The notes under the pieces: generated by a model
Seen by the model: only the letters and a program-made list of their open reading frames with translations
What the model was told of the DNA's origin: nothing
Databases searched by the model: none
Source of the DNA: Sphingomonas tagetis
GTDB lineage: Bacteria > Pseudomonadota > Alphaproteobacteria > Sphingomonadales > Sphingomonadaceae
DNA: 64,000 nt
Direction of reading: 5' to 3'
NCBI RefSeq assembly: GCF_024211275.1
Contig: NZ_JAMLDX010000002.1
Location: 124,001 to 188,000 of the forward strand
Program-made: the position numbers and the translations under genes
Shown here: piece after piece, positions 36,293 through 59,097 of the stretch
Layout: each line of letters begins with the position of its first letter
Position numbering within the stretch: position 1 is the first letter of the stretch

Positions 36293-36311
36293 GGAAAAGT
36301 AGTATTTTTCC
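36293..36311. promoter_or_regulatory. Operator-like inverted repeat upstream of FCD regulator 2
   Basis: GGAAAAGTAGTATTTTTCC has 6-base arms (GGAAAA / TTTTCC) around a 7-base core and contains TAGTAT, shared with AT-rich motifs before GH127 (37103) and before GH140 (55210). It may be an autoregulatory site of regulator 2. Confidence 0.5.
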
Positions 36312-36350
36312 CCGCATAAGAGCGCGAACAGCCACGATCGGACGCGACGC

Positions 36351-37076
36351 TTGAAGCAGATCCCCGAACTCAAGGGCAGCCGGCGCGACATGATGCGCGG
36401 CGTTGCGCGCTCCAGCCACGACCAGGTCGCACGCGTGCTCGGCACCGAGATCCTGTCGGGCGAGCTCGAACCGGGCACCAAGCTCGCCGAGGACGACATG
36501 CTCGCGCGTTTCGAAATCTCGCGGACCGTGCTGCGCGAGGTGAACAAGACGCTCAAGGCCAAGGGCTTCATCGCCGCCAAGCCGCGCGTCGGCACCACCG
36601 TGCTCGACAGCACGCACTGGAATTATTTCGACGCCGACGTGCTGGCGTGGAAGGTCGAGCAGGGCCTCGATCTCGGCTTCCTCACCGATCTCGCCGAAGT
36701 GCGCATCGCGATCGGCGCCGCCGCCGCGCGCGCCGCGGCGACCCGCCGCACCGAAGAAGATCTCGCCGCGATCCGCGACAGCCTCACCGCCATGCGCGCC
36801 GCCGGCAACCGCGACGCCTTCGCCGCCGCCGATCTCGACTTCCGCAAGGCAATCGCACGCGCGTCGGGCAATGCGCTGATGAGCTCGCTCACTGGCGTGA
36901 TCGAGACCACGCTGACCGCGTCGTTCCAGATGCGCCAGCCCGCCGCGAAAGGCGATCCGGACCTGCTCGGCCATGACGAGCTCGCCGCGGCGATCGAGTC
37001 CGGGGACGGCGACCGCGCTGCCCGCGCCATGCGCACGCTGATCGGCGAAGGCTTTGCACGCGGCGGCCTTGCTTGA
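36351..37076 (+). CDS. GntR family transcriptional regulator, FadR/FCD subfamily (regulator 2)
   Basis: A 241-residue regulator, read here from TTG at 36351; an ATG at 36390 (MMRGVARSSHDQ) would give a shorter form that keeps the DNA-binding domain. Winged helix: LEPGTKLAEDDMLARFEISR, TVLREVNKTLKAKGFI, RVGTTVLD. The FCD domain follows (DLDFRKAIARASGN, FQMRQPAAKGDPDLLGHDEL) with metal-binding positions. Placed right before GH127, RLP and DUF1537 genes on the same strand, it probably controls them and responds to a sugar acid of that pathway. Confidence 0.85.
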   Translation: MKQIPELKGSRRDMMRGVARSSHDQVARVLGTEILSGELEPGTKLAEDDMLARFEISRTVLREVNKTLKAKGFIAAKPRVGTTVLDSTHWNYFDADVLAWKVEQGLDLGFLTDLAEVRIAIGAAAARAAATRRTEEDLAAIRDSLTAMRAAGNRDAFAAADLDFRKAIARASGNALMSSLTGVIETTLTASFQMRQPAAKGDPDLLGHDELAAAIESGDGDRAARAMRTLIGEGFARGGLA

Positions 37077-37102
37077 TTTCAGAGGCGCGATTGCGCCGCT
37101 CG

Positions 37103-37122
37103 AATAATAATACTATTATATT
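37103..37122. promoter_or_regulatory. Operator/promoter-like AT-rich motif upstream of GH127
   Basis: AATAATAATACTATTATATT in a 100-base gap. On the other strand it contains AATAGTATTAT, close to AATAGTATGAT upstream of the GH140 operon (55210-55230) and to TAGTAT in front of regulator 2. This suggests a common regulator for both operons. Confidence 0.5.
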
Positions 37123-37176
37123 CTGACTATCGGCAAGGGTGCCCGAATCGCGCCCGGCCGCAGGAGGGATCGAGCG

Positions 37177-39003
37177 ATGACCGAAGCAGTTTCGCGGCGC
37201 CATTTCATGCACTGCGCCGCCTGTGCCACCACTGCCGCCAGCGTCGGCGCGCTACCGGCCAGTGCGCTCGCCGCCCAATATACCGGCACCCGCGCGTCCG
37301 GCCCCGGCGGCAAGGAGGCGATGCGCGAATTCCCCTATGGCGCGGTCAAGCTCACCGGCGGCCGCATCAAGCGCCAGTTCGATCACATCCATTCGCACTT
37401 CCTCGCGCTCGACAATGACCGCATCCTCAAGGTCTTCCGCCAGAATGCCGGCCTCCCCGCCCCCGGCCCCGACATGGGTGGCTGGTATGACCGTGACGGC
37501 TTCGTCGCCGGGCTGACGCTGGGCCAGTACATCTCCGGCCTCGCGCGCTATGGCGCGGCGACCGGCGACCAGCAGGCACATGACAAGGTCAAATTGCTGG
37601 TCAGCGAATGGGGCAAGGCGATGGTCGCCGCGACCAATCCCTATGCCGGCCCCAGGGCGCAGGCGCAGTGGGCCGCCTATGTCATGGACAAGTACGTCGT
37701 CGGGCTGATCGACGCCTATCGCCTGTCCGGTGTCGAGCAGGCCAGGTCGCTGCTGCCGATCATCATCGAAAAGTGCCGCCCGTACATCTCGCCCGTCTCG
37801 CGCGACCGCATCGGCAAGACCGAGCCGCCCTATGACGAGACCTATGTCCTCTCGGAAAACCTGTTCCACGTCGCCGAGATCACCGGCGACAAGAAGTATC
37901 ACGACATGGCCGTCCACTATATGCTGGACAAGGAGTGGTTCGATCCGCTGGCCGCCGGCCAGGACGTCTTGCCCACCAAGCACGCCTATAGCCACACGAT
38001 CGGCAACGCTTCGGGCGCGCAGGCCTATCTCCACCTCGGCGACGACAAATACCGCAAGGCGCTGATCAACGCGTGGAAGTTCATGGAGCCGCAGCGCTTC
38101 GCCAGCGGCGGCTGGGGGCCGGAGGAGCAATTCGTGGTCCACGGCCAGGGCAATCTCGCCAAGAGCCTCAAGACCTCAAAGGCGCACTTCGAGACCCCGT
38201 GCGGCGCCTTCGCCGACCTGAAGCTCGCCCGCTACCTCATCCGCTTCACCGGCGACGCGCAATATGGCGACGGACTCGAGCGCACGCTGTACAACACGAT
38301 GCTCGCCACCCGCCTGCCCGACAGCGACGGCGGCTATCCCTATTATTCGGACTACGGCGCGAAGGGCGAAAAGCGCTATTACCACCAGAAATGGCCATGC
38401 TGCTCGGGCACGCTGGTTCAAGGCGTCGCCGACTATGTCCTCAACGCCTATTTCCACGATGACAATGACTTGCTGGTCAACCTCTACACCCCGTCCGAAG
38501 TGAAGTGGGACCGTCCCGGCGGCGCGGTCGAGATCGTGCAGGAAACCGACTATCCGGTCGCCGACACGGTCAAGCTCAAGGTGCGCAAGGCCGGCAATGG
38601 CCGCTTCGGCCTCAAGCTGCGCATTCCCGCCTGGACCAGGGATGCGACGCTGACCATCAATGGCAAGCGCATGCCCACGGTACCCGGCCAGCTCGCCACG
38701 CTCACGCGGACGTGGAAGGCCGGCGACACGGTCGAACTGACCATCCCGCAGCCGCTGCGCACGCTTCCGATCGATCCGGAGAACCCCAATTTGCAGGCGG
38801 TGATGCGTGGTGCGGTGATGTATGTCGGCCTCAACCCGTGGGACGGCATCGACAAGGAAACGATCGCGCTCCCCGGCGCGCTCACGCCGATGCCGGGCCA
38901 CCCCGAATCCTATCGCGCCCGGGTCGGCGAGCGGAACCTGGTGTTCGTGCCATACTATGCGGTCGATACCGAGCGCACGACGACCTACTTCAAGACGGCG
39001 TAA
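37177..39003 (+). CDS. GH127-family glycoside hydrolase (DUF1680), Tat-exported
   Basis: A 608-residue protein with a twin-arginine-type signal (VSRRHFMHCAACATTAASVGA). The (alpha/alpha)6 body follows, with DMGGWYDRDGFVAG, HFETPCGAFADLK (Glu and Cys) and KWPCCSGTL (the Cys-Cys pair holding zinc, one being the nucleophile in GH127). Family activities are beta-L-arabinofuranosidase and, in an RG-II-degrading Bacteroides, aceric acid removal (from memory). It is translated just ahead of the RLP (one base between stop and start), tying glycan cleavage to sugar catabolism. GH146 is a neighbouring alternative. Confidence 0.85.
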   Translation: MTEAVSRRHFMHCAACATTAASVGALPASALAAQYTGTRASGPGGKEAMREFPYGAVKLTGGRIKRQFDHIHSHFLALDNDRILKVFRQNAGLPAPGPDMGGWYDRDGFVAGLTLGQYISGLARYGAATGDQQAHDKVKLLVSEWGKAMVAATNPYAGPRAQAQWAAYVMDKYVVGLIDAYRLSGVEQARSLLPIIIEKCRPYISPVSRDRIGKTEPPYDETYVLSENLFHVAEITGDKKYHDMAVHYMLDKEWFDPLAAGQDVLPTKHAYSHTIGNASGAQAYLHLGDDKYRKALINAWKFMEPQRFASGGWGPEEQFVVHGQGNLAKSLKTSKAHFETPCGAFADLKLARYLIRFTGDAQYGDGLERTLYNTMLATRLPDSDGGYPYYSDYGAKGEKRYYHQKWPCCSGTLVQGVADYVLNAYFHDDNDLLVNLYTPSEVKWDRPGGAVEIVQETDYPVADTVKLKVRKAGNGRFGLKLRIPAWTRDATLTINGKRMPTVPGQLATLTRTWKAGDTVELTIPQPLRTLPIDPENPNLQAVMRGAVMYVGLNPWDGIDKETIALPGALTPMPGHPESYRARVGERNLVFVPYYAVDTERTTTYFKTA

Positions 39004-39004
39004 G

Positions 39005-40267
39005 ATGAGCCGGGTCACCGCCACCTACGAGATCGAAACCGCCTTCCCGCTGGCGCAGGCCGCAGCGACGATGGCCGGCGAGCAATCCACCGGAACCTTC
39101 GTCCGGGTGCCCGGCGAGACCGACGAACTGCGCGAGGCCCACGCCGCGCGTGTCGAACAACTGGTCGAGCTGGGCGACGTCGCCGAACCTTCGCTCCCCG
39201 GCGCGGGCACGCCGAAGAATTGGGACGGCAAGCGCCGCCGCGCCCGCGTCGTCCTGTCCTGGCCGATTTCCAATTTCGGCCTCTCGCTCCCCAATTTGCT
39301 CGCGACGATCAACGGCAACCTGTCGGAGCTGAAGGCATTCTCCGGCCTGCGCCTTATCGACGTCACGCTGCCGCCGGAATTCCTCACCCGCTACCAAGGC
39401 CCGCAATTCGGGGTCGCCGGCACGCGCGAGCTGGCGGGGGTGTATGATCGCCCGATCATCGGCACGATCATCAAGCCCAGCGTCGGCCTTTCGCCGCAAG
39501 CCACCGCCGAACAGGTCCGCGTGCTGGTCGAGGCCGGGGTCGATTTCATCAAGGACGACGAGTTGCAGGCCGACGGCCCGCACTGCCCGTTCGGCGAACG
39601 CGTCAGCGCGGTGATGCGCGTCATCAACGACCACGCCGAGCGCACCGGCAAGAAGGTGATGTTCGCCGCCAACCTCACCGGCGAGATCGACGAGATGCTC
39701 GCCCGCCACGATCATGTTCTCGCCAATGGCGGCACCTGCGTCATGGCGAGCATGAACTCGATCGGTCTGCCCGCGATGAAGGTTCTGCGCGCACATTCGC
39801 AGCTGCCGATCCACGGCCACCGCAATGGCTGGGGCATGCTCGGCCGCTCGCCCGCGATCGGCATGAGCTACATCGCCTTCCAGAAATTGTGGCGCCTCGC
39901 CGGCATCGACCACACCCATGTCAACGGCATCGACAACAAATTCTGCGAGAGCAACGAGAGCGTGATCGCATCCGCGCGCGAATGCCTGACGCCGATGTTC
40001 CCTGCCCCCCATCCGGGCTGCGAGATCATGCCGGTCTTCTCCTCTGGCCAGTCCGCCAAACAGGCCGCCCCGACCTTCGCCGCGCTCGGCAGCGTCGACT
40101 GCATGTTCGCCGCTGGCGGCGGCATCATGGCGCATCCCGGCGGCCCGGCAGCAGGCGTCCGCGCGCTGCAACAGGCGTGGCAGGCCGCGGTCGCCGGCGT
40201 CCCGGTCGAGCAGGCCGCGAACGACGCCCCCGAGCTCAAGGCGGCGCTCGGCGCGTTCGGCGGGTGA
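39005..40267 (+). CDS. RuBisCO-like protein, candidate 3-oxo-isoapionate-4-phosphate transcarboxylase/hydrolase or decarboxylase
   Basis: A 420-residue form IV RuBisCO homologue. Key residues are kept: Lys157 in TIIKPSVGLSP, Lys183-Asp185-Glu186 in FIKDDELQ (the carbamylated Lys and metal ligands), His272-Arg273 in IHGHRNGW, a Lys312 in GIDNKFCES at the loop-6 region, FSSGQS at 345-350 and GGGIMAHPGG at 371-380. It is followed by a DUF1537 kinase with GTGA overlap and preceded by GH127. RLP plus DUF1537 is the arrangement described for D-apiose catabolism. I infer OiaX or OiaC function. A MtnW-type enolase is less likely, as no methionine-salvage gene is nearby. Confidence 0.87.
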   Translation: MSRVTATYEIETAFPLAQAAATMAGEQSTGTFVRVPGETDELREAHAARVEQLVELGDVAEPSLPGAGTPKNWDGKRRRARVVLSWPISNFGLSLPNLLATINGNLSELKAFSGLRLIDVTLPPEFLTRYQGPQFGVAGTRELAGVYDRPIIGTIIKPSVGLSPQATAEQVRVLVEAGVDFIKDDELQADGPHCPFGERVSAVMRVINDHAERTGKKVMFAANLTGEIDEMLARHDHVLANGGTCVMASMNSIGLPAMKVLRAHSQLPIHGHRNGWGMLGRSPAIGMSYIAFQKLWRLAGIDHTHVNGIDNKFCESNESVIASARECLTPMFPAPHPGCEIMPVFSSGQSAKQAAPTFAALGSVDCMFAAGGGIMAHPGGPAAGVRALQQAWQAAVAGVPVEQAANDAPELKAALGAFGG

Positions 40268-41538
40268 CGCCGCTCTACGCCTTTATCGGCGATGATTTCA
40301 CCGGTTCGACCGATGTGCTCGAGCAGCTGGCGGAAGGCGGCGTGCCCGCCGTGCTGTTCCTGCGCCCGCCCGACGCGGAACTCCGCGCCCGCTTCCCCGA
40401 AGCCCGCGCCATCGGCATCGCCAGCGACGCGCGCAGCCGTTCACCCGAATGGATGGAGGCTCACCTGCCGGCGATGTTCGCGGCGCTGAGCGACGCGGCG
40501 CTCGTCCACTACAAGACCTGCTCGACCTTCGACAGCGCACCGCACACCGGCTCGATCGGCCGCGCGCTCGACATCGGTCTGCGCATCTTCGGCGGCCCCG
40601 CCGCGATCGTCGTCGCCGCGCCGCACCTGCGCCGCTACGTCGCGTTCGGCAATCTCTTCGCCGCGGCGGGCGAGCAGGTTCACCGCATCGACCGCCACCC
40701 CACCATGTCGCGCCACCCGGTTACCCCGATGCACGAAGCCGACCTGATCCGGCACCTCGCCGCGCAGACCGACGCCCGCATCGCGCTGGTCCCGCTCGAC
40801 CGCATCCAGTCCGGCGAAGCCGAAGCCGCATTCGATGCGGTCGCCAACGCCGATGCGGTGCTGTTCGACGGCACGACGTTCGACGATCTCGCCGCCACCG
40901 GTGCGATCCTGCGCAGCCGCAACGTCCGCTTCGCCGCCGGCAGCTCGGGCGTCACCCGCGCGCTGGTCCTCGACTGGCAGCGCAGCGGCGAGAGCGCGTC
41001 CGAACCCATGCTCCCGGCCGCCACCGAAACCGATCGCCTGCTCGTCGTCAGCGGCAGCTGCTCACCCGTCACCGCACGCCAGATCGCGCGCAGCACGAGC
41101 GACGGCTTCGCTGTGGCCCGTGCCGACGTCTCAGCGCTGGTCGAAGGGTCATCTGCCGAGGAAGTCCGCCTCGCCGACGCCGCGCTTGCCGCGCTCGCCT
41201 CCGGCAATCGCGCCGTCATCGCCTCCGCCGAAGGCCCGCTCGACACCGACGCGTCCGCTGCCGGCGAAAAGCTCGGGGCAGCGCTCGGCCGCATCACAAG
41301 CGACATCGTCCGCCGCGCGCGCCTCACTCGCGTGCTGTTCGCGGGCGGTGACACCTCCAGCCACGGCGTCGCGCAACTCGGCATCGACGCGCTGACCTGG
41401 GCCGCCCCGATCGAGCGCGGCGCGCCACTCGTCCGCGCCCATGCCGCCGACCCGGCGATCGACGGACTCGAACTGGTGCTCAAGGGCGGCCAGATGGGCG
41501 GCGACGATTTCTTCGAGGTGGTGCGCCGCGGCGGCTAA
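40264..41538 (+). CDS. DUF1537 four-carbon/sugar-acid kinase family protein (candidate 3-oxo-isoapionate kinase)
   Basis: A 424-residue kinase beginning with GTG that overlaps the RLP stop. N-terminal substrate domain: YAFIGDDFTGSTDVLEQLAEGG and HYKTCSTFDSAPHTGSIGRA. C-terminal nucleotide domain: LLVVSGSCSPVTARQI, VLFAGGDTSSHGVAQLG and LELVLKGGQMGGDDFF. Members phosphorylate threonate, erythronate, 3-oxo-tetronate and 3-oxo-isoapionate. Directly after an RLP, the last is the most likely. Its stop overlaps the stop of the convergent GH42 gene. Confidence 0.86.
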   Translation: MTPLYAFIGDDFTGSTDVLEQLAEGGVPAVLFLRPPDAELRARFPEARAIGIASDARSRSPEWMEAHLPAMFAALSDAALVHYKTCSTFDSAPHTGSIGRALDIGLRIFGGPAAIVVAAPHLRRYVAFGNLFAAAGEQVHRIDRHPTMSRHPVTPMHEADLIRHLAAQTDARIALVPLDRIQSGEAEAAFDAVANADAVLFDGTTFDDLAATGAILRSRNVRFAAGSSGVTRALVLDWQRSGESASEPMLPAATETDRLLVVSGSCSPVTARQIARSTSDGFAVARADVSALVEGSSAEEVRLADAALAALASGNRAVIASAEGPLDTDASAAGEKLGAALGRITSDIVRRARLTRVLFAGGDTSSHGVAQLGIDALTWAAPIERGAPLVRAHAADPAIDGLELVLKGGQMGGDDFFEVVRRGG

Positions 41539-43586
41539 CGCTGCAGCACCGCCACTCCTTCCTCCTTCAGCTCGACCGAGCGCACCGACCCGCCGCCCAG
41601 CACGTCGCGCATCGCCGCCGGCAGCGCCACCGTCCGTGCCTGCGTGCCATGGTTGATCAGGATGACGACCCGCCGCCCCTGCCCCTCGCGCGTCATCAGT
41701 TCGACATCCTCGGGCAGCGCGAAGTCCCGCTCCACCTTCGCCCCGGCCAGCGCGACATCGATCAGCCCCTTCATCACCGCATCGTCGATCAGCGCGCCGA
41801 TATAGGTGATCCGCCCCTTGCCCACCTTCCGGCTGATCGCCGCCGGCTTACCGTCGAGCCAGCCATTGGCCTTGCCATAGCTCAGCAAGACCTCGGCATC
41901 CTTCGCGCTCACCGACAGTTGCTCGGCCCACACCGACGCGGTTCCGCTACCGACCGCGACCGGCTCCAACAGCGCATAATATTGCTCGACCCGCCCGCCC
42001 AACAGCTCGGCCAGCAGCCCCGGCTGCCGCTGCATCTGCAACCGGTTATATTCGTCCTTCATCCCCGAGCGCGGCCCCAGAATCAGGTGCCCGCCGCCGC
42101 GCACATAGTCCGCCAGCCGCTTCGCCGTCGCTTCGGTGATGACGTTCAGGCTCGGCGCCACGACCAGCTTGTAGCCGGCCAGCGGTGCGCCCTCCGCCTC
42201 GACGATATCGACCGCACCCAGCGCGCGCTTCAACGGCTCGTAATAATCGAGCAGCACCTCGATCTGGTCGTAATCCTTGTGGTGCAGCTGGAAATCGATC
42301 GCCCAGCGGCTGGCATAATCCTGCAGCAGCGCGACCTGCGCCACCGGATGCGTCCCGGCGATCACCGGCGTCGCCCTCGCCATTTCGCGGCCGATCTGCG
42401 CGACTTCGGCATAGACCGGCAGCGGCGTGCCGTCCTGCCCGACCAGCGCGCCGTGCATCGTCTCCTGCCCGTTGCGCGCGTTGCGCCATTGCCAATAGAG
42501 GATGCCGTCCGATCCGTGGCCGATCGCCTGCCACGCCATCGCGCGCGTCTCGCCCGGGTGCAGCATGTTGCTGACCCCGGCCCAGTTCACATAGCCGGGC
42601 TGGATCTCCATCACCCAGAAATTCTTGCGCTTCCACCCGCGCACCAGATCGTGCGTCGCGCCGTTGCGAAACGGCTTGAGGTGGCCGCTCCCGACATAAT
42701 TGTCCCAGCTGGTGAAATCGAGGTCGCGGTTGGCGGCGTAGCGGTCGAAACGGTTCGCCCAGCCCAACCCGCCGAAATTGATCGTGATGAACTGCTTTGG
42801 CGCCGCATGTGCGCGGATCGCATCGAGCTGGTTGCGGTGGAACGCCACCCATTGCGCGGTGATGAAGCGCCGCATCTCCAGCATCCAGCCGGGATTGGCC
42901 TTGTCGCTGCTGAACGGCACCTGCTCCCACGCCGAATAGGCCTGCGACCAATATTGAGTCGTCCACGCCTCGTTGAGCTTGTCCAGCGTGCCATAGCGCT
43001 GCTTGAGCCACGCCACCCACGCTGCACGCGCTTCGGGATCATAGCTCTCGTCGATCGGCTCGTTGCCGATCTGCCAGCCGATGACATTGGGTTCCTTGCC
43101 CAGCGCCTGCGCCATCCGCCCGACGATCTCGCGGCAAAACATGCGATAACGCTGCGACGAGATCGAGAAATGCCGCCGCATCCCGTGCGCGACCGGCGTG
43201 CCGTCGCTCCTGATCTGAACCACATCGGGATATTTCGCGGTCATCCACGCTGGCGGCGTGTCGCTCGGCGTCCCGATCACGACGTTGATGTCGTATTTCG
43301 CCGCCAGCCGCACCGCGCGGACCAGCCAGTCGAGGTCGTACTGCCCCTCCGCCGGCTCCATCCGCGCCCAGCCATATTCGCCGATCCGCACGACGTTGGC
43401 GCCGTGCGCCTTCATCAGCCGCAAATCCTCTTCCCAGCGCGCCTCCGGCCATTGCTCGGGATACCAGGCCGAGCCGAGCCACAGCCGCTTGAATTGCTGC
43501 TGACCCGGCGGCGCATCGGTCTGCCCGGCCGCTGGCGACCCACCGGCCAGCAATGCCGCGGCGAGACATGACAGGATACGCTTCAC
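41535..43586 (-). CDS. GH42-family beta-galactosidase-like enzyme, exported
   Basis: A 683-residue enzyme with a signal peptide (LSCLAAALLAGGSPAAGQ). GH42 catalytic domain: WLGSAWYPEQWPEARWEEDL, VRIGEYGWARMEPAEGQ, VIGWQIGNEP (acid/base Glu) and KNFWVMEIQPGYVNW (nucleophile Glu). Trimerisation-like and beta domains follow. It probably removes beta-galactose (or alpha-L-arabinopyranose) from pectin side chains. Its GTG start overlaps the stop of the GH140 gene upstream, and it is the last gene of the long minus-strand operon. Confidence 0.88.
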   Translation of the reverse strand: MKRILSCLAAALLAGGSPAAGQTDAPPGQQQFKRLWLGSAWYPEQWPEARWEEDLRLMKAHGANVVRIGEYGWARMEPAEGQYDLDWLVRAVRLAAKYDINVVIGTPSDTPPAWMTAKYPDVVQIRSDGTPVAHGMRRHFSISSQRYRMFCREIVGRMAQALGKEPNVIGWQIGNEPIDESYDPEARAAWVAWLKQRYGTLDKLNEAWTTQYWSQAYSAWEQVPFSSDKANPGWMLEMRRFITAQWVAFHRNQLDAIRAHAAPKQFITINFGGLGWANRFDRYAANRDLDFTSWDNYVGSGHLKPFRNGATHDLVRGWKRKNFWVMEIQPGYVNWAGVSNMLHPGETRAMAWQAIGHGSDGILYWQWRNARNGQETMHGALVGQDGTPLPVYAEVAQIGREMARATPVIAGTHPVAQVALLQDYASRWAIDFQLHHKDYDQIEVLLDYYEPLKRALGAVDIVEAEGAPLAGYKLVVAPSLNVITEATAKRLADYVRGGGHLILGPRSGMKDEYNRLQMQRQPGLLAELLGGRVEQYYALLEPVAVGSGTASVWAEQLSVSAKDAEVLLSYGKANGWLDGKPAAISRKVGKGRITYIGALIDDAVMKGLIDVALAGAKVERDFALPEDVELMTREGQGRRVVILINHGTQARTVALPAAMRDVLGGGSVRSVELKEEGVAVLQR

Positions 43587-44980: not shown

Positions 44981-45015
44981 CCGATCTCTCCTGTCGGCCC
45001 GTTGTGAAGGCGAGG

Positions 45016-50024: not shown

Positions 50025-50026
50025 GG

Positions 50027-50938: not shown

Positions 50939-50939
50939 A

Positions 50940-51701
50940 TCAGAAGGTGGTCCGGCCGCCCGACGTGTCGAAGGTCGAGGCGGTGGTGAAGCTGCATTCC
51001 TCGCTCGCCATGAAGCACACCATCGCGGCGCTTTCATGGACTTCGCCAAGGCGGCCCATCGGAATTTTCGAGCGCATATAATCGACCTGGCTCTGCGGCA
51101 GCTGATCGAGGATCGGGCTCTCGAACGTCGCCGGTGTCAGCGTGTTGGCGATGACGCCCTTGCCTGCCAGCTCCTTGCCGAGCGACTTGGTGAGGCCGAT
51201 CACCGCCGCCTTCGACGCGGAGTATGCGCTGGCGTTGGGGTTGCCTTCCTTGCCCGCGACCGAGGCGATGTTGACGATCCGGCCATAGCCCTGTTCCAGC
51301 ATCAGCGGCACGATCGCGCGGTTGCAATAGAACAGGCCGTTGACGTTGATGTCGAACACACGCAGCCAGCTGTCGATCGGGAATTCGTGCACCGGCACGG
51401 TGGCGCCGGTGATGCCCGCCGAGCAGACCAGAATGTCGACCTTGCCGAGCGCGGCGGCACTGGCCTTGGCAGCTGCCTCGACTGCCGCGAGGTCGGACAC
51501 GTCGAGTGCCTGAACATCGCTCGCGCCGACCTCGGCCTTCGCCGCAGCCAGCGTTTCAGGGTTGAGATCCCACAAAGCGACGCTGCCGCCCTCGGCGACG
51601 ATGCGCGCGGCGACCGCCTTGCCGAGGCCCGACGCGCCGCCGGTGATCACGGCGGTGCGGCCCGCGAACCGGCCTGCCCAGGAACTGACGGCGCCGCTCA
51701 C
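50940..51701 (-). CDS. SDR family oxidoreductase, probable L-2-keto-3-deoxyrhamnonate 4-dehydrogenase
   Basis: A 253-residue SDR from a GTG start that overlaps the FAH hydrolase stop. Motifs: TGGASGLGKAVAA, CSAGITGATVPVHEF, NIASVAGKEGNPNASAY and SASKAAVIGLTKSLGKEL; it ends with TSGGRTTF. In the L-rhamnose pathway this step makes 2,4-diketo-3-deoxy-L-rhamnonate, the substrate of the FAH enzyme encoded just upstream, which supports the assignment (LRA5-like). NAD-dependent and cytoplasmic. Confidence 0.83.
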   Translation of the reverse strand: MSGAVSSWAGRFAGRTAVITGGASGLGKAVAARIVAEGGSVALWDLNPETLAAAKAEVGASDVQALDVSDLAAVEAAAKASAAALGKVDILVCSAGITGATVPVHEFPIDSWLRVFDINVNGLFYCNRAIVPLMLEQGYGRIVNIASVAGKEGNPNASAYSASKAAVIGLTKSLGKELAGKGVIANTLTPATFESPILDQLPQSQVDYMRSKIPMGRLGEVHESAAMVCFMASEECSFTTASTFDTSGGRTTF

Positions 51702-52555
51702 TTGGCCGCATCCCATGCGACGAAGTCCTGGCGCTGTTGCCCGAGCTTCTCGATGCCGAGTTCGACCACGTCGCCGGCTTTCAGATACCAGGGCTCGGGC
51801 TTTTGGCCGAGGCCGACGCCCGGCGGGGTGCCGGTGGTGATCACGTCCCCCGGCAGCAGCGTCATGATCTGCGAGCAATAGGCGACGATCTGCGGCACGT
51901 TGAAGATCATCGTCGCGGTCGAGCCATTCTGTACCTTCTTGCCGTTGACGCTGAGCCACATCGACAGGTTGTGGACGTCGCCGACCTCGTCCTTCGTCAC
52001 CAGCCAGGGGCCGATCGGGCCAAAGGTCGGGAACCCCTTGCCCTTGTCCCAGGTCATGCCGCGCTCGGTCTGCCACTCGCGTTCGGACACGTCGTTGATC
52101 ACGCAATAGCCGGCGACATGATCGAGCGCCTGGTCTTCGGTGATGTTGTGCGCGGCGGTGCCGATCACGATACCGAGCTCGACCTCCCAGTCGGTCTTCC
52201 TGCTGCCCTTGGGGATGGTGACCGGGTCGTTCGGCCCCTGGATGCAGCTCACCCATTTGTTGAACACCACCGGCTCCTCGGGGATCGGCAGGTTCGATTC
52301 GGCGGCATGGTCGGCATAGTTGAGGCCGATCGCCACGAACTGCCGCGTGCCGGCGACGCACGGGCCATAGCGCACCTCGCCCTCGACCAGCTTGAGCGTC
52401 GCCGGATCGACCCCGGTGAGGTTGGCGAGCGTCTCGGGCGAGAGCGTCTTGCCGTCGATGTCGGCGACATAGTTGGAGAGGTCGCGGATGCGGCCATCGG
52501 CGTCGATCAGGCCGGGCTTCTCGGCACCCGGGGCGCCATAGCGGCAGAGCTTCAT
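51698..52555 (-). CDS. Fumarylacetoacetate hydrolase family protein, probable 2,4-diketo-3-deoxy-L-rhamnonate hydrolase
   Basis: A 285-residue FAH-fold hydrolase. Features: MKLCRYGAPGAEKPGLID, FVAIGLNYADHAAES, VVFNKWVSCIQGPND, KTDWEVELGIVIG (metal Glu residues), GYCVINDVSEREWQTERG and LLPGDVITTGTPPGVGLG. This close pattern is shared by LRA6, which cleaves the diketo acid to pyruvate and L-lactate, and by the fuconate counterpart. L-lactate can be used by LldD encoded at 59863-61002. It lies 18 bases after the L-rhamnonate dehydratase stop in the same operon. Confidence 0.87.
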   Translation of the reverse strand: MKLCRYGAPGAEKPGLIDADGRIRDLSNYVADIDGKTLSPETLANLTGVDPATLKLVEGEVRYGPCVAGTRQFVAIGLNYADHAAESNLPIPEEPVVFNKWVSCIQGPNDPVTIPKGSRKTDWEVELGIVIGTAAHNITEDQALDHVAGYCVINDVSEREWQTERGMTWDKGKGFPTFGPIGPWLVTKDEVGDVHNLSMWLSVNGKKVQNGSTATMIFNVPQIVAYCSQIMTLLPGDVITTGTPPGVGLGQKPEPWYLKAGDVVELGIEKLGQQRQDFVAWDAAK

Positions 52556-52573
52556 GGGTTCAGTCCTTTGGGT

Positions 52574-53782
52574 TCAATCGTTGGGATAGGGGCGGTGGAG
52601 CGCGATCTCGCGGTTGAGCTCGACCCCGAAGCCGGGCTTGTCGAGCTCGCTCGCGCGGATCTTGCCGTTGACGGGCACCGGCTCGCCGAGCAGCTGGGGC
52701 GCGAACATCGGTACCACTTCGGTGGGTCCCGGGTGCATCATCAGGAACTCGGCGAAGGGCGAGTTGTGGCGCGTGATCACGAAGTGATAGCTGTAGACGC
52801 TGCTGCCGTGCGGGACCATCATCACGCCGCGGCTGTCGGCATAGTTGGCGATCTTGATCAGCTCGGTCACGCCGCCGCACCAGCCGACATCGGGCTGGAT
52901 AATGTCGCAGCAGTCCATGTCCATCAGCATGCGAAAGCCCCAGCGCGTCGCCTCATGCTCGCCAGTGGTGACCAGCAGCCCTTTGGGCGCGTTCTTCTTG
53001 AGCGCGGCATAGCCCCAATAATCGTCGGGGCTGAGCGCCTCCTCGATCCATTTGAGGCCGCATTCATTGTACGCGCGATGCGCGAGGCGGGTGGCGTAAT
53101 CGAGGTCGAGGCTCATCCAGCAATCGAGCATCAGCCAGAAATCGTCGCCGCACCTGGCGCGCATGTCGGCGAGTTGCTCGATATTCTTCTGCAAGCCCTC
53201 CAGCCCCTCGGCCGGGCCGTGATGCAGCGGCAGCTTGCCGCCGATAAACCCCATCTCCTTCGCCAGATCGGGCCGCGCGCCGGTGGCATAGAATTGCAGC
53301 TCGTCGCGCACCGCGCCGCCGAGCATGTGATAGACCGGCTCGCCGCGCAGCTTGCCGAGCAGATCCCAGATCGCCAGATCGACGCCCGAGATGGCGTTCA
53401 CCACCAGGCCCTTGCGGCCATAATATTGCGACGAGAAGTACATCTGGTCCCAGATCTTCTCATACTCCGCCGGGCTGCGGCCGATCAGGAAGCGCGACAA
53501 ATGCTTCTCGACGATGAAACACGCCGGCTCGCCGCCAGTGGTCACCGCAAAGCCGATCGTGCCGTCCTCGGCCTCAAGCTCGACCACCAAAGTGCCGAGC
53601 ACATTGATGCCGAAGCTCTGCCGCGACTGCCGATACTCCGGATAGCGCGACATCGGCGTCGCGATATGATCGTCGATCCAGTGGCCTTCGCCCTGATCGT
53701 GATAGTCCGCACCGCCACCGCGCACCGTGTACGCCCGGACATGCTTGATCTTGGGAAGACCCGTGAAGGATTCCTTGGTCAT
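52574..53782 (-). CDS. rhmD: L-rhamnonate dehydratase
   Basis: A 402-residue enolase-superfamily dehydratase. The N-terminus ([40 protein letters not shown]) and [20 protein letters not shown] are diagnostic of RhmD. Also seen are [63 protein letters not shown] and [12 protein letters not shown] with the active-site His. The reaction is L-rhamnonate to 2-keto-3-deoxy-L-rhamnonate, Mg2+-dependent. The ATG at 53782 overlaps the GH140 stop (ATGA), so apiosidase and rhamnose catabolism are translationally coupled. Confidence 0.94.
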
Positions 53783-55152
53783 TTGTCGGTTCCATCGAGG
53801 ACGAGGACCCAGTCGTTGCCGGCCTTGGTTTCGCCGGGCGGGTCGAAGCGGCGCTCGCCGCGGTTGGCGAACGTCGCGATCGGCGTGAACGCGCCGTCGC
53901 GCGGCGAGTACCAGCTCGCCTTGACCTGACGGCCGGCGATCGCGCCGAGCTTCATCGTGAACGGGGCGCCGGTATAGCTGTAGGCGAAGGCGTAGGACTT
54001 GCCGCGGCTGGCGGCGACGCGGTCGTAGCGGGTGCCGTTGTCGCGGATCAGGCTCTGGTCCGGCACGCGTTCGAGCATCGGACGCGATTCGATCAGAGTG
54101 CGCAGATGGCGCATCTGGGTTGCGCCGGGCGCTTCGATCGCGGGTCGCCAGTGCAGATTGGGTTCGAAATTGGCGTCCTTCGATCCGGCCGCGAAGAACT
54201 GCATGATATGGTTCTCGCCATAGCTGTGGCCAAAGGCGCCGGCCATCACTGCCCACCAGCCGTAGCGGCGGACATCGGCGGCCTGCCAGCGCGGCTGGTT
54301 CTGCTCGTGCAGGCCGTGCGGGATGTTCTCGTAGCTCGGCTCGCCGTCGATCGTCGGCTTGGGCGGGGTGCGCGCGAGATCCTGTGCGACATAGCGCCAA
54401 TTATCCTCGGCGATCGCATTGGGGCCTTCCTGCGCATAGCTGCGGTGGCCCGACTGGAACATGTTGAAGTCGAGCCAGGGCGCCTCGTGCCACTGCCACG
54501 AGGAAGCGGTGCGGCCGATCGGGTGGAAGGTCATCAGCTGCCTTGGCGCGATCTTCTTGATCGTCGTGCCGAGCGCGTCCCACACCGCGCTGCGCATCTC
54601 GCTGCGGGTGTCGCCGCCGTTGAGCCAGACAATGTTGGGCGCCTTGCCATAGCGTTCCGCCATGAAGCGGGCATAGGTCGCGACATTCTTCTCGTTGAGC
54701 TGGCGCTCCATCGCCAGATCGCCCCAGGCGGGGACCATCGCGACATAGATGCCGTGCGCGGCGGCGCGCTCGACCACCCAGTCGAGATGGTCCCAATAGT
54801 CATACTCGCCGGCCTTGGCCGGGTCATTTCCGGGCGTCGTGCGCGGGCGGCCGGGATCGCCCTCGACCAAAGCGGGGGCGTCGTAGCGGTTCGTCATCTT
54901 GTTGGTGTGGAGGACCATCACCTGGATGACGTTGAAGCCCTGCCGCTGGCGCGTCGCGAGGTAGAAGTCGGTTTCTTCGCGGTTCAGGCGGCTGAGCAGC
55001 AGCCAGGCGGTATCGCCCATCCAGAAGAACGGCTTGCCCCCGGCCTCGAGATAGCGGTGGTTGGCCGAAACGGTGAGCGGCGGAGTCTGCGCCGATGCCG
55101 CGACGGGTGTCAGCGCCAGGGTGACGGCGAGCATGAGCTTGCGCGCGTTCAT
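53779..55152 (-). CDS. GH140 apiosidase-like protein (DUF4038 + C-terminal beta domain), exported; copy 2
   Basis: A 457-residue protein begun at ATG 55152 ([19 protein letters not shown], signal peptide). It has the same layout as copy 1: [48 protein letters not shown] (Asp), [14 protein letters not shown] (Glu), [14 protein letters not shown], then the C-terminal beta domain ([17 protein letters not shown]). First gene of the minus-strand operon that carries the rhamnose pathway, with an AT-rich operator-like motif about 60 bases upstream. In RG-II side chains A and B rhamnose is attached to apiose, which fits this linkage. Confidence 0.85.
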
Positions 55153-55209
55153 ACGATTCCACTCCCGAAATGCTGCCGGAATCTCATGCCGACGAACGGG
55201 CGATATTCT

Positions 55210-55230
55210 AAATATGATCATACTATTTGG
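55210..55230. promoter_or_regulatory. Operator-like motif upstream of the GH140/rhamnose operon
   Basis: AAATATGATCATACTATTTG; on the minus strand it reads AATAGTATGATCATATTT, containing the palindrome ATGATCAT and the word AATAGTAT shared with the site before GH127 (37103-37122). It overlaps the glcF stop codon and lies 58-78 bases before the GH140 start. Confidence 0.5.
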
Positions 55231-56509
55231 CAAGCGCTAGCGCGGCCGGCCGCGGCCCGCCCGTCGCCCAGTCGAGCAGTTCGATCGTATGGACGACCGG
55301 CGTACCCGAATAGCGGGCGATCTGCATCGCGCAGCCGACATTGCCAGTGGCGATGACATCGGCGCCGAGCTGGGCGATGTTCGCCGCTTTCCGCGCGCCG
55401 AGTTGCCCCGCGATCTCGGGCTGGAGGATATTGTAAGTGCCCGCCGAACCGCAGCAAAGATGCGCCTCGACCGGCGTTCGGACGGCGAAACCCGCCGCAG
55501 CCAGCAGCCGCTTAGGCGCTTCGGTGACTTTCTGGCCGTGCTGGAGCGAGCAGGCGGCATGATAGGCGACGGTAAGGCCGCGACCGTCGCCGCGCGGGAG
55601 ATCGGCTTCGATCAGCAGTTCGGAAATGTCCTTCGCCAGCGCCGACACCCGCGCCGCCTTCTCGGCATAAGCGGGGTCGTTCCGCAGCATGAAGCCATAG
55701 TCCTTGACCATCGTGCCGCAGCCCGAGGCGGTGACGACGATCGCGGCGAGGCCCTGCCCTTCGATCTCCCGCATCCAGGCGTCGACGTTGCGGCGCGCGG
55801 CGGCGAGGCTGTCGGACTCGCGGCCCATATGATGGACCAGCGCGCCGCAGCAACCTTCGCCGGGAGCGAACACCACGTCATAGCCGGCGCGGTTGAGCAG
55901 GCGGATCGCGGCGGCGCGGTATTCGGGCTTGAGGACCGGTTCGGCGCAGCCTTGCAGCAGGGCAACGCGGCCTTTGGCGCCGGGGACGGCGGCGTTCGAG
56001 GGGGGCGTTGCGGCGGGGATTCGCCGGGGCGCCATCGCCAGCATCGCGGCAAGCGGCTTCACGCCCGCAAACAGCGGCGCGAACGGGCGGCCAAGCTTCG
56101 CCAGCGTCAGCGCGGCGCGGAAGCGGCCGGGATAGGGCAGCACGGCCGCCAGCAGCCGCCGCACCGCACGCTCATGCCACGGGCGGCGGTAATTCTCATG
56201 GATGTACGCCCGCGCATGATCGACGAGGTGCATGTAATTCACACCCGACGGGCAGGTCGTCATGCACGACAGGCAGGAGAGGCAGCGGTCGACATGCTTG
56301 ACCGTCTCAGGCCCCGGCTCGCGCTGGTTCTCCAGCATGTCCTTGATCAGATAGAGGCGCCCGCGCGGGCTATCGAGCTCATCGCCGAGCAGCACATAGG
56401 TCGGGCAAGTCGCGGTGCAGAAACCGCAATGCACGCATTTGCGGATCACGCCTTCCGACGCGGCCATTGCGGGATCGGCGAGTTGTTCGGGCGAGAAGCG
56501 GGTCTGCAT
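55223..56509 (-). CDS. glcF: Glycolate oxidase iron-sulfur subunit GlcF
   Basis: A 428-residue subunit with two 4Fe-4S ferredoxin motifs near the N-terminus (CVHCGFCTATCPTY and CLSCLSCMTTCPSG) and two CCG-type domains (GEGCCGALVHHMGRES; LCCGSAGTYN). It passes electrons from the flavin subunits to the quinone pool. The gene starts right after the glcE stop. Present as the third gene of glcDEF, in the order D-E-F. GlcDEF oxidises glycolate to glyoxylate, and in some bacteria also D-lactate. Confidence 0.92.
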   Translation of the reverse strand: MQTRFSPEQLADPAMAASEGVIRKCVHCGFCTATCPTYVLLGDELDSPRGRLYLIKDMLENQREPGPETVKHVDRCLSCLSCMTTCPSGVNYMHLVDHARAYIHENYRRPWHERAVRRLLAAVLPYPGRFRAALTLAKLGRPFAPLFAGVKPLAAMLAMAPRRIPAATPPSNAAVPGAKGRVALLQGCAEPVLKPEYRAAAIRLLNRAGYDVVFAPGEGCCGALVHHMGRESDSLAAARRNVDAWMREIEGQGLAAIVVTASGCGTMVKDYGFMLRNDPAYAEKAARVSALAKDISELLIEADLPRGDGRGLTVAYHAACSLQHGQKVTEAPKRLLAAAGFAVRTPVEAHLCCGSAGTYNILQPEIAGQLGARKAANIAQLGADVIATGNVGCAMQIARYSGTPVVHTIELLDWATGGPRPAALALAK

Positions 56510-57604
56510 CTAGAAGCGCCCCGTTTCGAACACGCCATTGGGATCGAAGGCGCGGCGCACGCGGGCTTCGAGCGCGGCGAGCGCGGGTGGCTGTGGGTGC
56601 AGCGTGGGAACGGCCGCGCGCATCGCCGCATCGGCGCGGAAGATCATCGCGTGCCCGCCAGCAGCTTCAGCTGCGGTTCGGATCACAGCGGGATCGGCGT
56701 TGGTGGCGAGCCAGATCAGGCCACCCGCCCAATCGAACAGCCATGCCGCATGGGGTAGTGCCGATATCACGCCCGGCGCCTTGCCGGGCGCGACGATCAA
56801 CCGCCACAGCGGGCGATCGAGCGGCAGCGGGGCAGCGTCGCGGACAGCAGTCCACAGCGCGTCGGCGTCCTCGGCCGGCTCGAACTCAGGCAGCATCGCC
56901 GCGCGCGCCGCGATCGACTCCGTGAAACCGTCGAGCCGGATCGCGGTGACCGCCCCGCCCTGCCAATCCGGCAGATGCGCTGCGGCGGTGACTTCGGCTG
57001 CGGTGCCGAGCGCATAAGCCATTGCCGCGACCGCCTGTGCCGCATCGAGACCTCGGCGGATCAGCGTCCGTCGCGTGCGCGGTGCGGGCAGTACCTTTAG
57101 CGTGACTTCGGTCAGCGCGGCGAGCCGGCCCCAGCTGCCCGCCATCAGCTTGGGCAGGTCGTAGCCAGTGACGTTCTTGACCACCTTCGCGCCCGCGACG
57201 AACTTCTCGCCGCGGCCCGAGACCGCCGTGAAGCCGAGCAGATGATCGCGCACGCCGCCACGCGAAAGGCGGGCCGGGCCGGCCACGCCTGCGGCAATGA
57301 TGCCGCCGATCGTCGCCGCGCCTTCGCTGCCCAGCATCCGCGCGTGGTCGAAGGGATCGAAGGCGAGCATCTGGCCTTCGCCTGCCACCAGCGCCTCGAT
57401 CTCGGCGAGTGGCGTTCCGGCACCGACCGTCAGCACCAGCTCGGGCGGGTCGTAGTCGATCACGCCGGCAAAGCTGCGCATGTCGACGACTTGAGCCTCG
57501 CATGGCGCGCCGACCGTGTCCTTGGTTCCGCCCCCGCGCAGGCGGAGCTTTTCGCCTGCCGCGATCACCTCGCACAAGTCACCGATGGAAGCAGGCCGCA
57601 GCAT
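56510..57604 (-). CDS. glcE: Glycolate oxidase FAD-binding subunit GlcE
   Basis: A 364-residue short FAD-binding protein of the PCMH type: KLRLRGGGTKDT, LVLTVGAGTPLAEIE, LGSEGAATIGGIIAAGVAG, RGGVRDHLLGFTAVSGRGE and KNVTGYDLPKLMAGSWG. Much shorter than GlcD and lacking its C-terminal cap, as expected of GlcE. It overlaps the glcD stop by one base and abuts glcF. Confidence 0.92.
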   Translation of the reverse strand: MLRPASIGDLCEVIAAGEKLRLRGGGTKDTVGAPCEAQVVDMRSFAGVIDYDPPELVLTVGAGTPLAEIEALVAGEGQMLAFDPFDHARMLGSEGAATIGGIIAAGVAGPARLSRGGVRDHLLGFTAVSGRGEKFVAGAKVVKNVTGYDLPKLMAGSWGRLAALTEVTLKVLPAPRTRRTLIRRGLDAAQAVAAMAYALGTAAEVTAAAHLPDWQGGAVTAIRLDGFTESIAARAAMLPEFEPAEDADALWTAVRDAAPLPLDRPLWRLIVAPGKAPGVISALPHAAWLFDWAGGLIWLATNADPAVIRTAAEAAGGHAMIFRADAAMRAAVPTLHPQPPALAALEARVRRAFDPNGVFETGRF

Positions 57605-59097
57605 CAGAAGCGCGGCAAATCAGGAAATGGCACTTCGCCCCGATGGATGTGCATCCGGCCCAGTTCGGCACAACGGTGAAGCTCCGGAAAGACCTTGCCG
57701 GGGTTGAGCAGCAACTCGGGGTCGAACGCACATTTGACGCGCTGCTGCTGCGCCAGATCGGCCTCACTGAACATCACCGGCATCAGGTCGCGCTTCTCGA
57801 CGCCGACGCCATGCTCGCCGGTCAGCACCCCGCCCACCTCGACGCACAGCCGCAGGATATCGGCGCCGAACGCCTCTGCCGCCTCGAGCTGGCCGGGCTG
57901 GTTGGCGTCGTACAGGATCAGCGGATGGAGGTTACCGTCGCCGGCGTGGAAGACGTTGATCACGCCGAGGCCATATTGCCCGGACAGCTCGTTCATACGG
58001 TTGAGCACGTGCGGAAGGCGGCGACGCGGAATGGTCCCGTCCATGCAGTAATAATCGGGCGAAAGGCGGCCCGCCGCCGGGAACGCCGCCTTGCGCCCGG
58101 CCCAAAAGGCGATGCGCTCGGCCTCGTCCACCGAGGCACGGACCGAGACGGCGCCATTGGCAAGGGCGATGCGCTCGACCTCGCCGGAGAGATGCCCGCA
58201 TTCCGCGACGGGGCCGTCCAGCTCGACGATCAGCAACGCCTCGACGTCGAGCGGATAGCCGGCATGGACGAAATCCTCGGCGGCGTGGACGGCGGCGCGG
58301 TCCATCATCTCCATGCCCGCCGGGATGATGCCGGCAGCGATGACGTCGGCGACGCACTGGCCGGCGCTTTCGACGCTGGGGAAACCGATCAGCAGCGCCT
58401 GTGCGGTCTGCGGGCGCGGCAGGATTCGCACGGTGACTTCGGTGACCACGCCGAGCAGCCCTTCGGAGCCGACGATCACACCGAGCAAGTCGAGACCCGC
58501 GGGTTCGAGGCCGCGTCCGCCAAGCCGGATCACGTCGCCCTCCATCGTCACCAGTTCGACACCGAGGACGTTGTTGGTGGTGAGGCCATATTTGAGGCAG
58601 TGCACGCCGCCCGAATTTTCCGCGACATTGCCGCCGATCGTGCAGGCGATCTGGCTCGACGGATCGGGGGCATAGTAGAAACCCGCATCCTCGACCGCGC
58701 AGGTGATGGCGAGATTGGTGACGCCCGGCTGCACAACCGCGACGCGATCGGCATAGTCGATGTCGAGCACGCGGTTGAAGCGCGCCATGCCGAGCAGCAC
58801 CCCATCGGCAAGCGGCAACGCACCGCCCGACAGCGACGTGCCTGCACCGCGCGGCACCACCTTCACGCGATTGCCGTGGCACCAACGCAGGATCGCGGCG
58901 ACTTGCTCGACGGTTTCGGGCAGCACGCACACCATCGGCGGCTGGCGATAGGCGGTAAGGCCATCGCTCTCATAGGCGCGCAGCGATTCGATGTCGTCGA
59001 TCACGCCCTCGCCCGGCACGATCGCCCGCAGCGCCGCGACGATCTCCGCCCGCTTTGCCAGCGTGGCGGGATCGGGTGCGGGCATGACGAGCGACAT
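57604..59097 (-). CDS. glcD: Glycolate oxidase FAD-linked subunit GlcD
   Basis: A 497-residue FAD-linked oxidase. FAD domain: VKVVPRGAGTSLSGGALPLA, VAVVQPGVTNLAI, CTIGGNVAENSGGVHCLKYG and GSEGLLGVVTEVTVRILPRP. C-terminal domain: INVFHAGDGNLHPLILYD and TGEHGVGVEKRDLMP with the metal/active-site His residues. Catalytic subunit for glycolate (or D-lactate) oxidation at the membrane. It is 4 bases downstream of the SDR in one operon. In this context glycolate could come from D-apiose breakdown by the RLP. Confidence 0.92.
   Translation of the reverse strand: MSLVMPAPDPATLAKRAEIVAALRAIVPGEGVIDDIESLRAYESDGLTAYRQPPMVCVLPETVEQVAAILRWCHGNRVKVVPRGAGTSLSGGALPLADGVLLGMARFNRVLDIDYADRVAVVQPGVTNLAITCAVEDAGFYYAPDPSSQIACTIGGNVAENSGGVHCLKYGLTTNNVLGVELVTMEGDVIRLGGRGLEPAGLDLLGVIVGSEGLLGVVTEVTVRILPRPQTAQALLIGFPSVESAGQCVADVIAAGIIPAGMEMMDRAAVHAAEDFVHAGYPLDVEALLIVELDGPVAECGHLSGEVERIALANGAVSVRASVDEAERIAFWAGRKAAFPAAGRLSPDYYCMDGTIPRRRLPHVLNRMNELSGQYGLGVINVFHAGDGNLHPLILYDANQPGQLEAAEAFGADILRLCVEVGGVLTGEHGVGVEKRDLMPVMFSEADLAQQQRVKCAFDPELLLNPGKVFPELHRCAELGRMHIHRGEVPFPDLPRF

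Follow-up and report, generated by a model that had tools for sequence, protein, structure and literature searches.

What does a RuBisCO-like protein do in the midst of glycosidase genes? The question is raised by a stretch of 64,000 nucleotides from Sphingomonas tagetis (contig NZ_JAMLDX010000002.1; G000:C12:124001-188000 in our numbering), which we refer to as the window and which belongs to a genome that is 99.99% complete. An original prediction made from the sequence alone read its centre as a linked system for apiose release and catabolism, and profile matches bear out the genes that it named, at their positions: two GH140 apiosidase-type enzymes, a RuBisCO-like protein (RLP), a DUF1537 kinase overlapping it, and glcDEF. 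It overlooked a set of LRA genes for L-rhamnose oxidation together with LldD, glycosidases of families GH42 and GH78 and of GH127 type, an MFS transporter, and an Asp/Glu-racemase-fold protein that we term RAC. We suggest that the whole is a locus for utilising side chains of rhamnogalacturonan II (RG-II), in which RLP and kinase form a shared node for the branched sugars of RG-II, a reading that we regard as evenly balanced between right and wrong.

The RuBisCO-like protein and its kinase

The RLP (39005..40267, plus strand) is the sole RuBisCO-fold gene found in this genome. It has the fold domains PF00016 (210 bits) and PF02788 (39 bits), and K183-D184-D185-E186, which we take to be the lysine/acid metal motif, is kept in at least 95% of the 82 RLP rows compared, 12 of which were placed in no group. 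Its best NCBIfam model is OiaX, at 451.6 bits under a cut-off of 700, followed by form III RuBisCO (250 bits) and MtnW (199 and 151 bits). The kinase (40264..41538, plus strand; SBD_N 170 bits, NBD_C 109 bits), the start of whose gene overlaps the end of the RLP gene by 4 bases, is nearest to the OiaK model, at 430.6 bits and again under a cut-off of 700. Because none of 30 genomes, carriers of ApnL and ApnO included, reaches the OiaX cut-off, we judge it to be narrow. It is very likely that the pair has chemistry of the OiaX/OiaK type.

Relatives of the RLP at E <= 1e-60 are rare, occurring in two of 289 genomes of the class with its own genome counted. Neighbourhoods were compared in the best 80 of at least 574 loci with RLP relatives, L001 and L002 (the window's own stretch) being omitted, as were three short kinases from a set of kinase sequences; genes were clustered together with one extra locus and the window, which gives a total of 82 loci, differing in length, for the neighbourhood counts. 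A tree of 84 rows, built by a quick method with SH-aLRT support, puts the window's RLP in a clade of 30 rows (SH-aLRT 99) close to the RLPs of an apiose group. This agrees with the original prediction, and the MtnW models score far below OiaX. The apiose group consists of ten loci assigned from their neighbours and the tree (L031, L032, L034, L035, L046, L051, L056, L057, L058 and L077).

Three kinds of neighbourhood surround these RLPs. The first has an ApnO-type gene with a PF16896 domain near the RLP; the second is marked by a VOC protein and by transporters of the TRAP or polar ABC type; the third, that of the window, has RAC, mostly with GH127-type and GH78 genes and an MFS or SBF transporter. 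At least four changes are needed to fit these contexts to the tree of the same rows. The first and third kinds share residues at which the second differs (S94, N97, E108, S159, W276, N307, N311, Q353 and others), so that RLPs of these two kinds probably do the same chemistry, as far as their sequences can tell; between themselves they differ at R43 and L232. The second kind covers 20 loci (L055, L059-L061, L063, L066-L071, L073-L076 and L078-L082) whose RLP and DUF1537 genes are accompanied by such transporters and by a VOC protein of 179 residues; the solved RLP 3nwr falls in their clade.

Apiose genes in the genome and its relatives

If the RLP were fed from apiose, enzymes that lead to its substrate would be expected nearby or elsewhere in the genome. 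The original prediction had not clearly seen an apionate oxidoisomerase in the locus, and the same holds for the genome as a whole, which has no match to PF16896, the domain that we take as the mark of ApnO, and none to the ApnL model NF049900, in profile searches that were positive in 17 and 12 of 32 genomes, respectively. These genomes comprise 20 with RAC, ten of the apiose group, and two of the VOC kind (G318 and G319) that match neither profile and stand outside the comparison of 20 with ten. PF16896 was found in 10/10 apiose-group and 7/20 RAC genomes, and NF049900 in 7/10 and 5/20; the two adjoin each other in L031, L032, L057 and L058, with a Gfo/Idh protein as well in L031 and L032. 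An ApnO-type protein used as a query against the window's own genome gave one match, 35% identical over some 105 residues. No D-apiose dehydrogenase (ApsD) appeared among the window's genes in general domain scans, no search having been aimed at it since the Gfo/Idh family is too broad. The proposal of apiose catabolism through the RLP hence holds for the affinity of RLP and kinase to OiaX and OiaK, both under their cut-offs, and fails for ApnO and ApnL; we are confident that the known pathway is incomplete here and that the ApnL/ApnO route is not in this organism.

The relatives look different. Among 11 sphingomonad genomes, the window's included, five carry both ApnO and ApnL, each with a single RLP. 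Both genes share the RLP's contig, at distances of 14-29 kb, in Novosphingobium flavum (G291), a Sphingopyxis (G290) and two Hephaestia (G296, G297), and Sphingomonas dw_22 (G295) has ApnO 27 kb from the RLP and ApnL on a different contig. Our earlier supposition that apiose genes are always missing where the RAC clade occurs is thus wrong. Conversion of apiose to glycolate is well supported in these five genomes and, as each has one RLP only, any use of RLP chemistry for apiose there must run through that RLP, with glycolate as a likely product.

The original prediction took glcDEF as a sign of glycolate formation. As proof of apiose use on its own this was rejected, since glcDEF lies within a rhamnose block, unseen by that prediction, that also yields L-lactate; the argument regains weight because glcDEF adjoins ApnO in three relatives (loci L087, L088 and L089). 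The glcD genes of G295, G296 and G297 directly adjoin ApnO and are 81-82% identical to that of the window. The superlocus of GH140 and RLP includes glcDEF in 7/11 sphingomonads, namely in 5/5 with ApnO and ApnL and in 2/6 without (the window and G289; Fisher p 0.06, the loci being related to each other so that such p-values are not independent tests), and glcDEF was not seen in the flanks read of G292, G293, G294 and G300, some 14 to 50 kb on either side of the RLP. The block of GH140 and glcFED is alike in G290, with ApnO, and in G000 and G289, without it. The predicted linkage of GH140 to the RLP is supported, PF13204 scoring above 330 bits on the RLP's contig in 9/11 sphingomonad genomes.

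RAC, the regular partner of this RLP clade

What, then, is the constant companion of the RLP? The original prediction tied it to apiose, and here the neighbourhoods point elsewhere: the most regular partner in the window's clade is RAC (46266..46934, minus strand; PF01177 65.6 bits), which is not an apiose gene and occurs in 28 of the 30 rows (26 by clustering, L006 and L009 by a wider look), the other two, L005 and L028, being on short contigs. The same clade has the GH127-type cluster in 25 rows and the MFS cluster in 27. Across the set RAC is present in 34/82 loci (33 fetched loci and the window), and the company it keeps is distinctive. Genes of the GH127 cluster lie within about 10 kb in 25/34 RAC loci as opposed to 4/48 others, and GH78-type genes in 26/34 as opposed to 0/48. 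RAC-RLP loci are found in Pseudomonadota, Acidobacteriota, Bacteroidota, Verrucomicrobiota, Planctomycetota, Chloroflexota, Bacillota and a haloarchaeon; outside the 30-row clade, RAC loci lie on other branches of the tree in all of these except the first two. The haloarchaeal locus (L049, Natronoglomus mannanivorans) holds RLP, kinase and RAC with a GH2 gene, a gene of the GH29 cluster and a GH137-like gene.

The predicted structure of RAC (predicted local distance difference test score, pLDDT, 95) has the aspartate racemase 2dx7 as its best Foldseek match (E 3.2e-8; template-modelling score 0.77). C75 and S185 do not vary among the sequences aligned (33 of 34, the short RAC of L020 being omitted), so that the two cysteines of an Asp/Glu racemase are not both present; S185 presumably takes the place of the usual second catalytic cysteine. 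With one general base instead of two, the protein would be better fitted to aldose-ketose isomerisation than to racemisation. The RAC gene end overlaps the start of the MFS transporter gene (45016..46269, minus strand; overlap 46266/46269), whose product matches PF07690 at 195.5 bits and is of the D-galactonate, or sugar-acid, type, with TIGR00893 as its best NCBIfam model (239 bits, cut-off 395). Across the loci, the transporter next to RAC is either an MFS protein of this galactonate family or an SBF protein, and a ribose-type ABC transporter stands beside ApnO in L087.

RAC was also found in 51 of 295 genomes of Paenibacillaceae. Cluster 56, RAC and RLP lie side by side in 22 of the 30 loci read there out of 61 matches; a few RAC open reading frames were lost to an overlapping call, yet lie at the locus centre. 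Elsewhere in this family, in L098, L104, L111 and L119, RAC does not directly adjoin the RLP but has beside it another, longer protein that by eye resembles a DUF1537 kinase.

GH127-clan and GH137-like enzymes

Directly upstream of the RLP, with one base between the genes, lies a glycosidase of the GH127/GH146 clan (37177..39003, plus strand; PF07944 157 bits), probably exported to judge by eye from its twin-arginine-like N-terminus. E339, C342, C408 and C409 are invariant in its alignments. Compared with solved structures, its model reaches VIA-align Z scores of 34.0 for GH146 and 31.9 for BT_1003, values that do not separate GH146, GH127 and BT1003.

The model NF049879 describes aceric acid hydrolase and has a cut-off of 950 bits; we counted only scores above about 700, because GH127-clan matches of 300-500 bits are common in Paenibacillaceae. 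Taking the latter for aceric acid hydrolases was rejected, as 212 of the 295 genomes have a match at E <= 1e-60, all of them short of the cut-off. A match of 996.5 bits, above the cut-off, lies directly upstream of the RLP in L033, and L039 (943 bits), L044 (899) and L047 (894) come close to it; these loci are from Chloroflexota (L033), Verrucomicrobiota and Planctomycetota. RAC is present in all four loci that have such a gene (hypergeometric p 0.03). Planctobacterium (G298) has a 779-bit match 20 kb from its RLP, Olivibacter (G303) one of 1196 bits on a different contig from the RLP, and G328, of the Paenibacillaceae, a 738-bit gene 11 kb from RAC. GH137-like proteins above 100 bits, with 5mt2/5mui as best solved relatives (130 bits), are present in 16/20 RAC and 0/10 apiose-group genomes, two of the 16 at only 111 and 113 bits.

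Cluster 56 is perhaps a divergent member of the GH127 clan: it shares an E-x-C ... CC pattern, and a profile built from three sequences weakly matches A3, with a probability of 68% (E 5e-5), and A4, with 17%; a PDB search with it gave no result. A family of 574-577 residues (L050:7535-9259, L053:8148-9872, L054:7476-9209), with no Pfam match in the one member scanned, precedes RAC and RLP in most Paenibacillaceae loci read and is perhaps a divergent cysteine glycosidase of the same clan.

The rhamnose block and other genes of the window

The GH127-RLP-kinase operon is preceded by a GntR/FCD regulator (36351..37076, plus strand; PF07729 79 bits, PF00392 51 bits) with relatives in L004, L005 and L006. 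The genes that follow, all on the minus strand, begin with a GH42 beta-galactosidase (41535..43586; PF02449 375 bits) and the first GH140 apiosidase-type enzyme (43583..44980, with the start chosen in the original prediction, the open reading frame extending to 45637; PF13204 337 bits). Beyond the transporter and RAC come a GH78 alpha-L-rhamnosidase (46950..50024; PF17389 358.5 bits) and the oxidative L-rhamnose block: an amidohydrolase that is a candidate sugar lactonase LRA2 (50027..51049; PF04909 136 bits; best NCBIfam model L-fuconolactonase, 95 bits, cut-off 400), an SDR dehydrogenase as candidate LRA5 by its position in the set (50940..51674, the matched part of reading frame 50940-52361; PF13561 177 bits), an FAH-family hydrolase as candidate LRA6, again by position (51698..52555; PF01557 248 bits), the L-rhamnonate dehydratase LRA3 (52574..53767, the matched part of 52574-54400; NF011968 749 bits, cut-off 393), the L-rhamnose 1-dehydrogenase LRA1 (59102..59860, the matched part of 59102-60013; NF053807 461 bits, cut-off 400) and the FMN-dependent L-lactate dehydrogenase LldD (59863..61002; NF008398 649 bits, cut-off 376). 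The pathway is represented by LRA1 and LRA3 above their equivalog cut-offs, and by LRA2, LRA5 and LRA6 through family and position only.

Embedded in this block are glcF (55223..56509; NF008434 459.5 bits, cut-off 333), glcE (56510..57604; NF008439 304.6 bits, cut-off 284), glcD (57604..59097; NF008408 708.5 bits, under its cut-off of 897) and the second GH140 enzyme (53779..55152, reading frame to 55233; PF13204 360.5 bits). Both GH140 assignments rest on PF13204 above its cut-off and on 3kzs/5msy as closest solved relatives (399 bits for the first enzyme and 406 for the second), which supports apiosidase-type function as a prediction. A xylose/rhamnose-isomerase-like TIM barrel (62330..63310; PF01261 65 bits) is an alternative candidate for the aldose-ketose isomerase; it is present in 6/11 sphingomonad loci, the window counted, the five other copies being 80-87% identical, and an L-fucose-isomerase-like gene occurs in L019, L021, L044 and L047 and, distantly, in L053.

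Further genes may be recorded for completeness. The minus strand of the window also encodes two beta-helix pectinase-like proteins (11401-13014 and 20840-22552; PF12708/GH28), a protein resembling pectate lyase PelZ (60999-62330; 141 bits, cut-off 840) and, at 23311-29287, a 2-hydroxyacid dehydrogenase, an enoyl-CoA hydratase, a solute-binding protein, a class III CoA-transferase, an SDR protein and a DUF4432 protein. CoA-transferase or binding-protein clusters (11 and 18) turn up again, there next to the RLP, in L018, L023-L028, L037 and L062. About 8 kb past the window, a third, distant PF13204/DUF5060/DUF5605 protein (L091:7641-9770, on G000:C12) scores 71-74 bits for PF13204, and several sphingomonads have comparably low-scoring matches within about 35 kb of the RLP. 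Immediately beyond the window's end, L091:334-3724 holds three genes (clusters 37, 27 and 34) that look like an ABC transporter by size and order, and the same clusters are grouped near RLP loci in L021, L044, L047 and L053.

Discussion

We propose the following course for side-chain utilisation at this locus. The GH42, GH127-clan, GH78 and two GH140 enzymes would, judging from their families, remove galactose, a furanose, rhamnose and apiose. The LRA route would turn L-rhamnose into pyruvate and L-lactate, the latter then being oxidised by LldD, with LRA1, LRA3 and LldD assigned at family level and the remaining steps from family and position. A sugar acid would be imported by the MFS transporter, and RAC, or else a sugar isomerase encoded nearby, would turn it into a 3-keto acid that bears a carboxylated tertiary carbinol. 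Phosphorylation by the DUF1537 kinase would follow, and the RLP would split the product in the manner of RuBisCO, by decarboxylation or by transcarboxylation and hydrolysis. We lean towards RAC feeding the kinase. The shared node would, in relatives with ApnL and ApnO, take apiose-derived 3-oxo-isoapionate to 3-phosphoglycerate and glycolate, the latter for GlcDEF, and in this organism, where ApnL and ApnO are absent, the RAC branch would remain.

Which acid might enter by that branch? Aceric acid, 3-C-carboxy-5-deoxy-L-xylose, is a constituent of side chain B of RG-II. By our own derivation from the structures, its ketose, HOCH2-CO-C(OH)(COOH)-CHOH-CH3, would be 3-oxo-isoapionate with CHOH-CH3 for CH2OH; given this shared skeleton, one isomerase with kinase and RLP would suffice, which is the trio seen. 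The window's set of GH42, GH127, GH78 and GH140 would presumably fit the Gal-AceA-Rha-Api order of chain B. Aceric acid is our best guess for the substrate, offered tentatively, and its ketose would yield 3-phosphoglycerate and L-lactate. Just as tentative is the fuller proposal that the RLP-kinase-RAC trio is an aceric acid pathway whose RLP is shared, giving 3-phosphoglycerate with glycolate from apiose and with L-lactate from aceric acid.

A number of observations weigh against these proposals. The window's GH127-type enzyme reaches 105 bits for NF049879, far from the cut-off of 950, and its closer relatives are GH146 arabinofuranosidases (198 bits, as opposed to 114 for 5mqo of BT1003), so that aceric acid is linked to the window by analogy; no GH137 match was found in its genome. 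NF049879 above 700 bits shows no tie to RAC in Paenibacillaceae (1/51 RAC genomes, 2/244 others), genes of the GH127 cluster were not seen within 10 kb in 9/34 RAC loci, and the association tests ignore the relatedness of the loci. We know of no function for RAC and of no aldose-ketose isomerase with its fold; it may not be the isomerase, because other isomerase-like genes recur in these loci. Sugar-type ABC clusters 12 and 15 are not limited to apiose loci, and because seven loci in the window's own clade (L018, L023-L025, L027, L028 and L037) carry cluster 12 as well, the transporters are a hint only. RLP residues are nearly alike in RAC and apiose-group loci, so that a different substrate would leave little mark. 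Nor does our reading explain why glcDEF and two GH140 genes persist in the window in the absence of ApnO.

In a rival account, that of the original prediction, apiose released by GH140 would go through RLP and kinase to glycolate and 3-phosphoglycerate after all; the parts of ApnL and ApnO would be played by non-orthologous enzymes that escaped recognition, and RAC and the GH127-type enzyme would serve other residues. The two GH140 genes are at distances of about 4 and 14 kb to the RLP, five sphingomonads combine ApnO and ApnL with a single RLP, and the GH140-glcFED block is alike in genomes with and without ApnO. Yet PF16896 and NF049900 are absent throughout this genome, RAC is coupled to a transporter from a sugar-acid family, and 8/20 RAC genomes (G293, G294, G299, G301, G302, G304, G305 and G307) have neither PF16896 nor GH140 above 330 bits and so have kept the RLP without either; we consider this account rather unlikely. 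The transporter, overlapping with RAC as it does, would itself favour an imported branched sugar acid from outside RG-II, for instance hamamelonate (2-carboxyarabinitol) or a 3-C-carboxy sugar in free form, the glycosidases being mere neighbours, and the RLP group with TRAP or polar ABC transporters and VOC proteins indeed lacks GH78 and GH127 cluster genes. The sharp enrichment of GH78 and GH127-type genes at RAC loci, and GH137-like proteins in 16/20 RAC genomes, make this improbable. As for the methionine-salvage enolase MtnW, or a related RLP of sulfur metabolism, the similarity to its models is weak, with scores under the MtnW cut-offs of 409 and 513.6, and OiaX at 452 bits, the overlapping DUF1537 kinase and the genes for glycosidases and sugar catabolism that surround the RLP in the loci examined led us to reject it as highly improbable.

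Even with apiose as the sole substrate, apiosidase-type enzymes would here be combined in one locus with the oxidation of rhamnose and the chemistry of an RLP, and the absence of ApnL and ApnO predicts that the RLP node has a second point of entry. To our knowledge no route for aceric acid catabolism has been described, and none appears among the literature matches listed; these matches (titles and abstract starts, with few subscription papers covered) hold no publication tying an RLP to RG-II glycosidases or aceric acid, and a search pairing rubisco-like with aceric acid found no paper. Published reports describe the two RLP activities (PMC6302742), a five-enzyme apiose cluster with growth on D-apiose (PMC11747546), the action of GH137 and GH142 on RG-II with the GH127 enzyme BT1003 as aceric acid hydrolase (PMC10850190), and an Api-Rha base common to RG-II chains A and B (PMC12282258).

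Comparison with known systems places the locus between several of them. With the D-apiose pathway (ApsD-ApnL-ApnO-OiaK-OiaX) it shares an RLP and a DUF1537 kinase nearest to OiaX and OiaK, in one operon and with most residues of the group; it differs in that its genome lacks ApnL and ApnO, that RAC, a sugar-acid-type MFS transporter and a GH127-clan glycosidase stand beside the pair, and that GH140 is joined to the locus. That pathway, with its RLP, was reportedly described by Carter et al. in 2018. The nearest solved RLP, 3nwr, at 415 bits, belongs to the separate VOC and TRAP clade, and its group differs at residues common to the RAC and apiose groups. The oxidative L-rhamnose pathway consists of LRA1-LRA6 in that order, and the window agrees with it in LRA1 and LRA3 above cut-off, lactonase, SDR, FAH hydrolase and LldD, but has glcDEF and a GH140 gene inside the block. 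Bacteroides thetaiotaomicron, whose GH137 enzyme is BT0996, offers the closest parallel on the side of the glycosidases: the window's GH140 enzymes are close to 3kzs/5msy, which we take to be BT1012, and RAC loci of relatives have GH137-like and BT1003-type genes in or near them. Unlike in that RG-II degradome, the glycosidases here include a divergent GH127-clan enzyme, come with no GH137 match, and are tied to the catabolism of monosaccharides through an RLP.

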